Shown: positions 1,479-51,335 of the stretch, piece after piece | Layout: each line of letters starts with the position of its first letter | Numbering within the stretch: the stretch's first letter is position 1 | NCBI RefSeq assembly: GCF_026241095.1 | Contig: NZ_JAPFGB010000005.1 | Span: 186,001 to 250,000 of the forward strand | Source of the DNA: Saccharopolyspora sp. NFXS83 | Lineage (GTDB): Bacteria > Actinomycetota > Actinomycetes > Mycobacteriales > Pseudonocardiaceae | Direction of reading: 5' to 3' | Length of the DNA: 64,000 bases | Program-made: the position numbers and the translations under genes | The notes under the pieces: model-generated | Told to the model about the DNA's origin: nothing | The model's database searches: none | What the model saw: only the letters and a program-made list of their open reading frames with translations

Positions 1479-2459
1479 CTAGCTCGTCGTGTCGCGCAGC
1501 GCGCGGATCAGGGTGCGGCGCGCGAGTTCCACTTTGAACTCGGTGCCCTCCACGGTGAACGGGTCCTGGACGGCGAGTTCCGCCGCCGCCGCGAACGACT
1601 CCGCCGTGGACGGCTGGTCGAGCAGCGCCCGCTCCGCCTCGCCCGCGCGCCAGGGCACGGTGCCGACGCCGCCGAGCGCGATGCGCGCCTCCCGCACGAC
1701 GCCGTCCGCCACCCGCACGGCCACCGCGGCGGAGCTCAGCGCGAACTCGTAGGAAGCGCGATCGCGCACCTTCAGATATCCGGAGCGCACGCCGGGAGCG
1801 GGCAGCGGCACGTCCACACCGATGATCAGCTCGTCGTGACCGAGCACGTTCTCCACGTCCGGCGTCGACCCCGGGACCCGGTAGAACTCGGCGAGCGGCA
1901 CCGAGCGCGGTCCCGCCCCGCCCTGCACCCGCACCACGGCGTCCAGCGCGGTCAGCGCCACCGCCAGGTCCGAGCCGTGCACCGCGATGCAGTCCGCGCT
2001 CGCGCCGAGGATCGCGTGCATCCGCGCGCCACCGGTCACCGCGGCGCAGCCGCTGCCGGGCGCTCGCTTGTTGCAGGCCGTCACCGACGGGTCGCGGAAG
2101 TAGCGGCACCTGGTGCGCTGCAACAGGTTCCCGCCGATGGTCGCCATGTTCCGCAGCTGCGGAGACGCGCTGGCCAGCAACGCCTCGGACACCACCGGAG
2201 CCCGTTCGACGACGAGCGGGTCGGCGGCGAGCTCGGCCATGGTGGTCATCGCGCCGACGCGCAACACCTCGCCGTCCCGGCTGATCCCGCGCAGCGGCAG
2301 CCGGGTCACGTCGACGAGGGTGCGCGGGGCGAGCACCCCGTCCTTCATCAAGTCCAGCTGGGTGGTGCCGCCCGCGAGGTAGGACGCCTCCGGATCGGCG
2401 CCGACCGCGGCGACCGCTTCGGCGACGTCACCGGGGCGCAGGTACTGGAACTCACGCAT
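1479..2459 (-). CDS. FAD-binding subunit of molybdenum hydroxylase (YagS/PaoB type)
   Basis: The 326-residue protein is the middle electron-transfer subunit, moving electrons from the 2Fe-2S centres to FAD. The N-terminus (MREFQYLRP, then LAGGTTQLDLMKDGV) is the family's FAD-binding start, and the ATIGGNLLQRTRCRYFRD segment at about residues 105-125 is the second FAD loop. The Cys residues around RCRYFRD and CNKRAPGSGC match the extra iron-sulfur site reported for the E. coli PaoB branch; that is knowledge of the family applied here. Its start overlaps the preceding small-subunit gene by eight bases and the Mo-subunit gene begins 12 bases after its stop, so all three are co-translated. Confidence 0.92.
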   Translation of the reverse strand: MREFQYLRPGDVAEAVAAVGADPEASYLAGGTTQLDLMKDGVLAPRTLVDVTRLPLRGISRDGEVLRVGAMTTMAELAADPLVVERAPVVSEALLASASPQLRNMATIGGNLLQRTRCRYFRDPSVTACNKRAPGSGCAAVTGGARMHAILGASADCIAVHGSDLAVALTALDAVVRVQGGAGPRSVPLAEFYRVPGSTPDVENVLGHDELIIGVDVPLPAPGVRSGYLKVRDRASYEFALSSAAVAVRVADGVVREARIALGGVGTVPWRAGEAERALLDQPSTAESFAAAAELAVQDPFTVEGTEFKVELARRTLIRALRDTTS

Positions 2460-2934
2460 TCTCCGCGACCTCCCGGATGGCGGCCACGATGTTCGAGTAC
2501 GCGCCGCAGCGGCACAGGTTCCCGCTCATCTGCTCCCGGACCTCCTCGTCCGAACCGGTGCGCCCCTCGTCGAGCAAGCACACCGCGGACATGATCTGAC
2601 CTGGCGTGCAGTAGCCGCACTGGAAGGCGTCGTGGCGCACGAACGCCTGCTGCACCGGGTGCGGTTCGCCGTCGGCGCCGAGACCTTCGACGGTCGTGAT
2701 CTCGCGGTCGTCGCACTGCGCGGCCAGCGTCAGGCAGGACAGCCTGCGCGCCCCGTCCACCGCCACCGTGCACGCGCCGCACGCGCCCTGGTCGCAGCCC
2801 TTCTTGGTGCCGGTGAGGCCGAGTTCGTCGCGCAGCGCGTCGAGCAGCGTGACCCGCGCGTCGAGATCCAGTTCGTGGTCGGTGCCGTTGACGGTGAGCG
2901 AGACCGAAACCCGGTCGTCGGCCGTTGATGCCAT
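2452..2934 (-). CDS. 2Fe-2S iron-sulfur subunit of molybdenum hydroxylase (YagT/PaoA type)
   Basis: The 160-residue protein has the two expected iron-sulfur domains. A plant-ferredoxin-type domain carries KKGCDQGACGACTVAVDG and a C at RRLSCL, and a helical domain carries FQCGYCTPGQ and SGNLCRCGAY. All eight cysteines are visible. Unlike PaoA of E. coli it has no long Tat signal of its own; the large subunit carries one, so co-export of the assembled complex is an inference. It is the first gene of the operon, with its ATG at 2934 and its promoter probably in the gap towards 3170. Confidence 0.93.
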   Translation of the reverse strand: MASTADDRVSVSLTVNGTDHELDLDARVTLLDALRDELGLTGTKKGCDQGACGACTVAVDGARRLSCLTLAAQCDDREITTVEGLGADGEPHPVQQAFVRHDAFQCGYCTPGQIMSAVCLLDEGRTGSDEEVREQMSGNLCRCGAYSNIVAAIREVAENA

Positions 2935-3169: not shown

Positions 3170-3217
3170 GTGGCTCCCACCGTTGCGACGAGAAACGCCG
3201 CACGTGGTGGGAGCCAC
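3170..3217 (-). terminator. 12-bp perfect inverted repeat downstream of the small peptide gene
   Basis: GTGGCTCCCACC (3170-3181) pairs perfectly with GGTGGGAGCCAC (3206-3217) across a 24-base loop. On the reverse strand it lies about 100 bases after the stop of the 18-residue peptide gene and about 235 bases before the molybdenum hydroxylase operon. It fits a terminator for the peptide transcript, though no U-tract follows and an operator role is possible. Confidence 0.5.
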
Positions 3218-3313
3218 CTCGACAATGCGTATCACCTTCGGGCCGTCATGGCCGGAGTGCTCCGGGCACGTCGTGGCGCGCGCCGGAGCGGAGCCGTGGC
3301 GGACGGGTGCCGG

Positions 3314-3370
3314 TTACTTGCCCCAGCCCCAGCCGCCGCTGGAGTAGACGAAAACGCTCTTGATGCGCAT
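3314..3370 (-). CDS. Candidate 18-residue peptide ending GGWGWGK
   Basis: A reverse-strand ATG at 3370 opens an 18-codon frame, MRIKSVFVYSSGGWGWGK, ending with TAA at 3314. A purine-rich GAAGAAGGTG ribosome binding site sits six to eight bases before the ATG, which is better than many start sites in this window. The peptide has a basic N-terminus, a hydrophobic middle (VFVY) and a Ser/Gly/Trp-rich tail with a terminal Lys. I do not recognise a family. The aromatic-Gly-Lys tail recalls cores of ribosomally made, modified peptides, but no radical SAM, P450 or YcaO gene is adjacent, so that is only a suggestion. It stands alone between two reverse-strand transcription units with hairpins on both sides. 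It could also be a regulatory leader peptide. Confidence 0.5.
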   Translation of the reverse strand: MRIKSVFVYSSGGWGWGK

Positions 3371-3593
3371 GTCCGCACCTTCTTCCCAAGAACCCGGCAG
3401 GCGAAATCGCTCCGTCCACCGGTCGATCGACGATCGTTCTACGGAGTTCGCGGGGGTCGTGATCTTCGGCCCCGTACGCGCCGGGTGGTCGCCTTCAGGC
3501 CAGGCCCAGCACGATTGCCATCCACGGTAGGAGCGCGGCGAACGCGATCGAAACGGTCCTTCGACCCGCGTACGATATGTGTCGAACGCGCGG

Positions 3594-3627
3594 CCAGGGG
3601 CGTCCGCCGAACGGCGGACGCCCCTGG
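3594..3627 (-). terminator. Strong terminator hairpin of the phosphoesterase gene
   Basis: A perfect 15-bp stem (CCAGGGGCGTCCGCC at 3594-3608 with its complement at 3613-3627) closes on a GAAC tetraloop. It begins 32 bases after the phosphoesterase stop codon on the reverse strand. It has no clear U-tract, as is common in high-GC actinomycetes. Confidence 0.8.
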
Positions 3628-3658: not shown

Positions 3659-4597
3659 TCACTTCGTGGTGTTCAGGTCGACGTCGACGGTGAAGTCGTC
3701 CTCGCCGTCGAAGTAGTCCGAGTCGTCCTTCGACGGCGAGTAGGTGTCGACGATCATCTTGCCCGCGTCGATGTCGAACTGCAGCAGCCGCAGGTAGCCG
3801 AGCCCCCCTTCGGGGGCGCTCTGGTAGTCGGCGAGGATCTCCGGGACCTGGCGGCCGTCGCCGGTGTCCTTCACGTTGTGCGTGGCACCGTGGTTGTGCC
3901 CGCACAGCACGGCCTTCACGTTCTTGTGCGGCTTGACGATGCGGTCGAAGACGTCCTGCCCCTGCTGGTCGTAGGAACCGTCGGTGTTCAGGTACGCGTG
4001 CACGCTGATGATCACCGGGGTGTCCGGGTGCTCGGCGAGGGCCTGCTCCGCCCAGGCGAAGTCCTCCTCCTGCATGTCCCAGGTCAGCGACAGCATCATG
4101 ACCTGCTTGCCCGCGACGTCGACGAGGTCGTAGTGCTGGCGGTTGTTCTCGTAGGACTCGCCGTACACCGGGGAGTTCGCGAACCGCTGCTCGCCGAAGT
4201 AGTCGCCGTAGAGGCCCTTGACGTCGTGGTTGCCCTCGACGACGCCGTACGGGAACTTCGCGTCGTCCAGCGTCTTCATGCTGGCGTCGGCGTTCTTCCA
4301 CTGGTCCTCGTCGTCGGAGTCGTCGACGATGTCACCGGTGTGCGTCGCGTAACCGATCTTGCGCTCGGCGCCGTTGTCGACCACCCACTGCGTCTGGGCG
4401 TCGAAGTGCTCCGGGTGGCTCTCGGAGTAGTACTGGGTGTCCGGCAGCCAGGCGATCGCGGCATCGTAGGTGGCGGGGTCGGGCAGCTCGTTCGCGCGGG
4501 CCGCCGGTCCGGCGAGCGCGCTCGGCGCCGCGATCGCGGTCGCGGCGGTCAGGCTGGTGGCGGCCAGTGCGAACAGCAGGCGACGGTCAGGCTTCAC
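3659..4597 (-). CDS. Secreted metallophosphoesterase
   Basis: The GTG start at 4597 is chosen because GAGGAG lies just upstream and it begins a clean signal peptide (KPDRRLLFALAATS, hydrophobic, then Ala-rich to about residue 30); an in-frame ATG 24 codons upstream lacks both. The mature part carries the calcineurin-like metal-site motifs: LPDTQYY (in place of DxH), HTGDIVDD (GDxxD), VVEGNHDV (GNHD), SVHAYL (H) and LCGHNHGATH (GHxH). It therefore probably cleaves phosphate esters outside the cell. It is monocistronic, with a perfect terminator behind it. The substrate is unknown. Product length is 312 residues. Confidence 0.9.
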   Translation of the reverse strand: MKPDRRLLFALAATSLTAATAIAAPSALAGPAARANELPDPATYDAAIAWLPDTQYYSESHPEHFDAQTQWVVDNGAERKIGYATHTGDIVDDSDDEDQWKNADASMKTLDDAKFPYGVVEGNHDVKGLYGDYFGEQRFANSPVYGESYENNRQHYDLVDVAGKQVMMLSLTWDMQEEDFAWAEQALAEHPDTPVIISVHAYLNTDGSYDQQGQDVFDRIVKPHKNVKAVLCGHNHGATHNVKDTGDGRQVPEILADYQSAPEGGLGYLRLLQFDIDAGKMIVDTYSPSKDDSDYFDGEDDFTVDVDLNTTK

Positions 4598-51105: not shown

Positions 51106-51335
51106 CCGGACTCAGGCGCGGAGTCCGGCAGGCTGCGACCCGGCACCGCCTGCGGTCCGGGGAGCCGGCCAGGTCTTCGGGCTCGGGTTCACCGGGCGAG
51201 GTCCCTTCCCGGACCGGGAGGTCCAGTGGTTCCGGCCGTGGCCGTCCTCGCCCATCGCCCCTACCGCTGCGCGTCAGCTCCGGCTTCCGACCGGATTCCC
51301 TGCCCTCACGGGCGCGACAGGCTCCCGAGCACCCT
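51106..51335 (-). promoter_or_regulatory. Cobalamin (adenosylcobalamin) riboswitch
   Basis: On the reverse strand the leader shows the ordered core of a cobalamin riboswitch: a GGTGCTCGGGAGCCTG P1/P2 start (about 51333), GGGAATCCGGTCGGAAGCCGG with CGCAGCGGTAG, an ACCACTGG element at about 51220, GGGAAGG, and the B12 box GAGCCCGAAGACCTGGCC at 51167-51184. A perfect 8-bp hairpin (51106-51113 with 51121-51128) lies directly upstream of the GAGGAA ribosome binding site. The likely control is therefore on translation of the binding-protein gene and its operon. Confidence 0.9.

Follow-up and report, generated by a model that had tools for sequence, protein, structure and literature searches.

A short open reading frame (ORF) of 18 codons in Saccharopolyspora sp. 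NFXS83 is, judged from sequence comparison, a real gene and a shortened copy of a peptide family built from Trp-Gly repeats. It lies in a stretch of 64,000 nucleotides (hereafter the window; contig NZ_JAPFGB010000005.1, positions 186,001 to 250,000) taken from a 6.9-Mb draft assembly of 70 contigs. The odds lean slightly, in our estimation, towards the 18-mer being an intact but contracted member of a group of short Gly/Trp-repeat peptides of the Pseudonocardiaceae, which would be exported and oxidised on tryptophan (Trp) by machinery in trans. Comparison with related genomes reveals homologous peptides, an in-frame loss of 30 codons relative to a sister species, a conserved 3' hairpin, and linkage of family members to an ABC exporter and a flavin monooxygenase (FMO). 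Members of the family are probably exported short repeat peptides carrying oxidised Trp. Features of the window locus are collected in Table 1; G000 denotes the window's own genome.

Table 1. Positions of the peptide gene, its signals and its neighbours in the window
Feature	Position	Strand	Basis
18-codon peptide gene MRIKSVFVYSSGGWGWGK, contracted group-A Gly/Trp-repeat peptide	3314..3370	minus	ORF translation, tblastn, DNA alignment
Ribosome binding site GGGAAGAAGG	3378..3387	minus	sequence; kept in G001, nearly so in G003
3' hairpin	3170..3217 (arms 3170-3181 and 3206-3217)	minus	perfect 12-bp inverted repeat; two-sided changes at five pairs
Conserved 3' element GCATTGTCGAGGTGGCTCCCACC, includes hairpin 5' arm	3206..3228	minus	alignments
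Inverted repeat with 16-bp arms, after the phosphoesterase gene	3594..3627	minus	sequence
Calcineurin-like phosphoesterase, upstream neighbour	3659..4597	minus	adjoins the peptide gene in G001 and G003 too; adjoins the empty site in G002
2Fe-2S subunit of molybdenum hydroxylase, downstream neighbour (molybdenum-hydroxylase operon)	2452..2934	minus	same order only in G001 and G002

Gene structure and group-A homologues

A preliminary description of this locus had proposed an 18-residue ORF with a ribosome binding site (RBS) and a perfect 12-bp inverted repeat behind it, and each of these is present. The ORF is genuine, with homologues in genus genomes; the RBS is of the AGAAGG type and stands 7 nt ahead of the ATG (3370-3368), the sequence 5' of which on the minus strand is GGGAAGAAGGTGCGGAC; and the inverted repeat begins 96 nt past the peptide stop, with 24 nt between its arms. 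As regards the RiPP-precursor trait of ribosomal translation from a gene, what is seen at sequence level is an ORF, an RBS and a frame conserved in relatives.

A tblastn search of 60 genomes with the 18-mer gave matches in four of the six genus genomes, its own included (E 1.1e-7 to 2.8e-4), and a longer query added a fifth (G003); weak matches in G027, G033 and G047 (E 0.7-1.4) were regarded as chance and set aside. The window gene and its homologues in G001, G003, G004 and G005 are referred to here as group A. The homologues in these four of the five other genus genomes are longer Gly/Trp-repeat peptides of 48 (MRIKSIFVYSGGGWGWGHGWGHGWGSGWGWGNGWGWGWGHWGGWGWGR, G001), 49, 50 and 44 amino acids (aa), respectively, with 9-12 Trp residues against two in the window copy. 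DNA alignment shows that G000 is without 90 bp (30 codons, in frame) that lie in G001 between the first GGWGWG-coding copy and the last one, and that upstream sequence, RBS, start, stop and hairpin are all conserved among G000, G001 and G003. The contraction is the derived state, because the other four group-A peptides are long. On this alignment the WGWGK end of the 18-mer is the remainder after repeat loss, and it is not conserved in relatives, whose variable repeats are followed by a terminal R, K, H, W or C. Conservation is seen in an N-terminal block of the M-x-[IV]-K-x-x-F type ahead of a repetitive core. The peptide gene is absent from G002, in which the same phosphoesterase and iron-sulphur genes flank the interval, and the full-length, 18-codon and empty forms together suggest that the locus ranges from full length through 18 codons to nothing. 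Repeat-built peptide genes can, on this reading, shrink in frame to 18 codons and then vanish, which makes them a trap for small-ORF annotation.

The short form might also be a collapsed repeat in the draft, as contig break-up marks such an assembly and both Trp/Gly genes read in it are short (18 and 30 aa). We regard this as very improbable, given that the lost repeat region is only 90 bp and that the 30-aa peptide also has substitutions at both repeat ends.

Codon-level conservation and state of the window copy

Within the first 17 codons, 1 of 51 nt differs between G004 and G005, as against 26 mismatches and 20 gap columns in 200 nt upstream, and 2 of 51 nt differ between G000 and G001, as against 26 mismatches and 6 gap columns in the upstream flank. 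Pooled over 15 pairs, 16 codon differences are synonymous and 11 non-synonymous, and the differences fall 12, 6 and 15 times on the respective codon positions, suggesting a modest signal of purifying selection. The preliminary description had looked to relatives for conservation of the frame with variation at third positions; the N-terminal block is indeed kept, with a third-position excess that is only modest.

Repeat loss may instead have removed the functional core of the window copy and left its frame to drift as a pseudogene, a reading to which we give somewhat less than an even chance. The gene is absent from G002, and several properties of the window copy count against function: its three codon differences from G001 (V/I, S/G, and K/R in the last codon) are all non-synonymous, it has two Trp left of the 9-12 found in its homologues, and it has no shared upstream motif. 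RBS, start, stop and hairpin are nevertheless intact, and short forms occur elsewhere in the family (29 aa in L284, 34 aa in L282, and the 30-aa peptide of the window's own genome, which sits beside an exporter and an FMO). Function and decay thus appear to have similar odds for the window copy, which, with one repeat left, may be a minimal member or may be heading for loss as in G002. The pseudogene reading concerns this copy alone and is compatible with the family being one of exported, Trp-oxidised peptides.

Genomic setting of the window gene

The inverted repeat after the upstream phosphoesterase gene is probably the terminator of that gene, which suggests that the peptide gene probably forms a unit by itself. 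A leader peptide, one of the options raised at the outset, is unlikely here. According to a crude gene caller, the nearest gene downstream is convergent in two of the five group-A loci (G003 and G004), the sole co-oriented downstream call in G005 is a doubtful 64-aa ORF, and a co-oriented downstream gene is common only to the close pair G000/G001. A cis leader peptide was rejected for the window gene since no conserved downstream gene was found across the five group-A loci; a conserved co-oriented gene directly downstream is found in the exporter-linked members of the family.

Paralogues linked to an exporter and a flavin monooxygenase

All six genus genomes contain a second peptide group (group B, such as MSSIKSVFVYVNNRRRKHGWGWGWGHGWGWGH...HKK), in each case just upstream of genes for an MsbA-like ABC exporter and a VioD-related FMO. 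The group-B peptide of the window's own genome (MSSIKSVFVYVNNRRRRHGWGWGHHRWGRK, 30 aa) is encoded on contig 6, a different contig from the window, where a hairpin, the MsbA-like ABC exporter and the FAD monooxygenase come after the peptide gene. The exporter comprises ABC_membrane and ABC_tran domains and scores 473 bits with TIGR02203, below the MsbA cut-off of 602; no Pfam peptidase domain was found in it. For the FMO, the best solved relative is VioD (E 7e-44), and in NCBIfam it reaches 207 bits with VioD (cut-off 620) and 381 bits with salicylyl-CoA 5-hydroxylase (cut-off 1078), a higher score with the latter which suggests that its substrate may be a small molecule. Other members of the family stand alone (L062, L065, L358 and L359).

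No maturation enzyme had been noticed near the window gene, and this holds for the seven flanking proteins scanned; with respect to the RiPP trait of a modifying enzyme nearby or in trans, the FMO lies beside the paralogue on another contig. Among the options put forward for the 18-mer, a RiPP precursor served in trans fits best, with paralogues adjoining the ABC exporter and the VioD-related FMO, recognition, oxidation, export and action in trans being the parts that we infer. PADLOC returned generic ATPase and kinase matches only. A gene for a pyridoxal-dependent aromatic-type decarboxylase (L059, 7670-9076, minus strand) is divergent from the exporter-linked peptide gene and recurs in the five remaining genus genomes and in L322 (genera g1 and g13).

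Distribution of peptide types and FMO in the exporter clade

With the cut-offs used, the exporter search gave matches in 43 of 297 family genomes and 18 of 396 phylum genomes. We examined 67 exporter loci, leaving out L296, which duplicates the own-genome locus. In 61 of the 67, a biased short peptide gene precedes the exporter, and these were labelled by eye from the peptide just upstream (L361 and L363, cut by contig edges, from a partial ORF); the others had no clear peptide type and were left unlabelled (L297, L302, L309, L311, L376 and L379). The labelled loci comprise 31 Trp/Gly (6 genera), 7 Tyr-rich, 4 Asp/Arg-rich, 6 Phe/Gly/Arg/Cys, 10 Arg-rich and 3 Pro/Lys-rich types. An FMO gene, in either orientation, is present in the fetched flank of 30 of the 31 Trp/Gly loci versus none of the 30 loci of other types, among which L289 ends 324 bp past the exporter and is uninformative for absence and the other 29 extend 1.1-2.5 kb downstream. 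The 31st Trp/Gly locus (L295) has its FMO ~1.6 kb from the exporter, visible in a wider stretch, and inspection of ten longer stretches with Tyr, Arg and Pro/Lys loci revealed no FMO. Asp/Arg-type peptides contain 1-5 Trp, yet their loci have no FMO.

A quick tree of the exporters, with the Pro/Lys rows as root, places the Tyr-type rows, which have no FMO, inside the Trp/Gly rows, with three label changes for Trp/Gly and two for Tyr. This nesting suggests that the change from Trp to Tyr and the loss of the FMO coincide; as they did so only once or twice, replication of the linkage is weak. The clade is a natural experiment, with a Trp type that has the FMO and a Tyr type nested inside it that does not, making the FMO substrate directly testable. 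The FMO itself was matched in 40 of 297 family genomes. A Trp/Gly peptide lies beside the FMO with no exporter seen in L336, L337 and L353, and none was found in the flank of five of the eight exporter-free FMO loci fetched.

Several of the other types have distinctive surroundings. Tyr/Gly-rich peptides (MRVSDVFT...) occur with same-clade exporter paralogues in L314, L315, L316 and L325 (genus g3), where a MoeA gene flanks the locus on each side, within a formate-dehydrogenase-like cluster. Short ORFs rich in Arg (poly-Arg) or in Pro/Lys precede same-clade exporters in L298-L308 (another class of the phylum), L310, L312 and L313, and a protein kinase gene follows in L318 and L319, near Arg types. 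A second exporter paralogue (L371-L375 and L377; Saccharopolyspora group g26) is preceded by a Phe/Gly/Arg/Cys-rich peptide, MAVFTGLAPAWGGF.... With MoeA genes by the Tyr-type and a kinase gene by the Arg-type exporters, the types other than Trp show no evident general tailoring enzyme.

The same surroundings bear on an unlikely alternative, in which the Trp/Gly repeats would act by themselves as metal-binding or structural surface peptides and the FMO would make an unrelated small molecule. The other exporter-linked types are likewise of low complexity and share no common tailoring enzyme (kinase near Arg, MoeA near Tyr), and His-Gly-Trp spacing is regular in some members (L065 and L010), all of which would suit such a role; that FMO presence tracks the Trp/Gly type argues against it. 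A broader proposal, which we hold to be doubtful, is that an Actinomycetota exporter clade serves fast-changing low-complexity peptides that switch among Trp/Gly, Tyr/Gly, Phe/Cys, Asp/Arg, Arg and Pro/Lys types. The Trp type would then be oxidised by a flavoenzyme at many indoles per peptide and secreted as redox-active or cross-linkable material, forming an undescribed class of which the 18-mer would be the smallest unit seen.

Hairpin, 3' element and upstream motif

The hairpin stem has 12 of 12 pairs in all five group-A loci, of which three share one genomic site and two lie elsewhere in the genome; in these hand-picked stems, five pairs show changes on both sides. Across the family, the longest perfect inverted repeat downstream exceeds that of all 60 shuffles for 27 of 30 genes, the exceptions being A_G005 (9 of 60 shuffles reach it), S_G248 (11) and S_G005c (1). 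The hairpin is probably the transcript end.

Biased leaders ahead of a terminator are known for amino-acid attenuators. The exporter-linked loci, in which a strong hairpin separates a biased short ORF from the exporter gene downstream, resemble such attenuators in layout, and the ORFs could be leaders in which slow or stalled translation controls the exporter via the hairpin, the window copy being a detached relic. We consider this improbable overall. Stand-alone members have no conserved downstream gene, one member is divergent from its FMO, and N-terminal blocks and C-terminal ends are conserved; moreover, in a simple test, pairing of the hairpin 5' arm with the last 100 nt of the ORF was 2 s.d. 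above shuffles in none of 20 exporter-linked loci, so that here, unlike in attenuators, no competing structure rises above shuffles. For the exporter-linked members attenuation is a fair rival; for the group of the window gene it is not.

The G002 interval that is without the peptide gene retains a remnant of the 3' element (GCATTGCCGAGATGGCTC). The element (GCATTGYCGAGRTGGCTC in the window; L410) thus persists in G002 despite gene loss, and may have a role of its own or may merely be slow to decay.

The motif AGTCCTCTGGGCRC has six exact sites in the six genus genomes, all upstream of Trp/Gly peptide genes: group B in G001, G004 and G005, one stand-alone gene in G004 and two in G005. As the pattern was derived from these same sites, what counts is that no further exact site occurs. 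Upstream of group B, a one-mismatch form is present in G000 and G002 and none in G003; since 22 sites with at most one mismatch compare with 30 for a reversed control, only the exact sites speak. The motif is absent upstream of group A, the window gene included. Two of 15 pairs of upstream sequences exceeded shuffles, each of them pairing either two stand-alone genes or group B with a stand-alone gene from another genome, and no pair tried of the window group with other groups did.

Proposed mechanism and relation to known systems

In the mechanism that we envisage for exported, Trp-oxidised peptides, the N-terminal block would guide the peptide to the exporter, the FMO or both, the FMO would oxidise indole side chains of the Trp core, and the exporter would release the oxidised product. 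Stand-alone genes, that of the window among them, would use the same exporter and FMO in trans. If so, unannotated short ORFs of the Pseudonocardiaceae would make up a secreted-peptide system with its own exporter and Trp-directed oxidase.

RiPPs with a dedicated ABC exporter likewise have a short peptide gene, a conserved N-terminal block, a variable core and a linked exporter and, in common with the Trp/Gly type only, a linked oxidising enzyme. The present peptides differ in that they belong to no known precursor family, no protease was found, the modification is putative, and the core is hugely repetitive with a composition that shifts between types. The FMO has VioD of violacein biosynthesis as its best solved relative and yet falls below the NCBIfam VioD cut-off, and the exporter shares the domains of MsbA-like exporters, whereas it scores below the MsbA cut-off and is preceded by a biased peptide gene. 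Leader-peptide attenuators share the biased short ORF, the hairpin and the operon gene of exporter-linked members, unlike the stand-alone and divergent members seen here.

Darobactin, to which the preliminary description likened the peptide end, is made by the radical SAM enzyme DarE (PMC9055067). The likeness is confined to the 18-mer, whose C-terminus spells Trp-X-Trp-X-Lys. It does not extend to the enzyme or to the relatives: Pfam models for radical SAM or P450 matched none of the 27 neighbourhood proteins scanned, seven of them around the window gene, and the Trp and Lys positions of this leftover of repeat loss are not kept. A darobactin-like core was therefore rejected. A possible likeness between the N-terminal block and the ErmC leader, which responds to erythromycin, was dropped as well, since the Saccharopolyspora members do not share it.

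The family is without a name, and the set of peptide, exporter and FMO looks like an undescribed secreted-peptide system. Pfam and NCBIfam gave no family at cut-off for 13 peptides (3 of group A and 10 of other groups or types); the best Pfam match, KRTAP (keratin-associated; E 0.014, 16.4 bits versus a cut-off of 21.1), was set aside as a composition match. Listings and abstract openings in the open-access literature yielded no publication on such peptides. A repeat-DNA scan of genome contigs gave at least 119 stretches and was swamped by (GGGGCT)n tracts; among the matches listed, only a Saccharopolyspora hirsuta peptide was recognised as of similar kind. The same pattern gave 80 stretches in viral sequences. 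At Rfam gathering thresholds there was no match near the peptide in the window, L008, L059 or L060, and a cobalamin riboswitch (RF00174, 59 bits) was found at window positions 51171-51301 on the minus strand.
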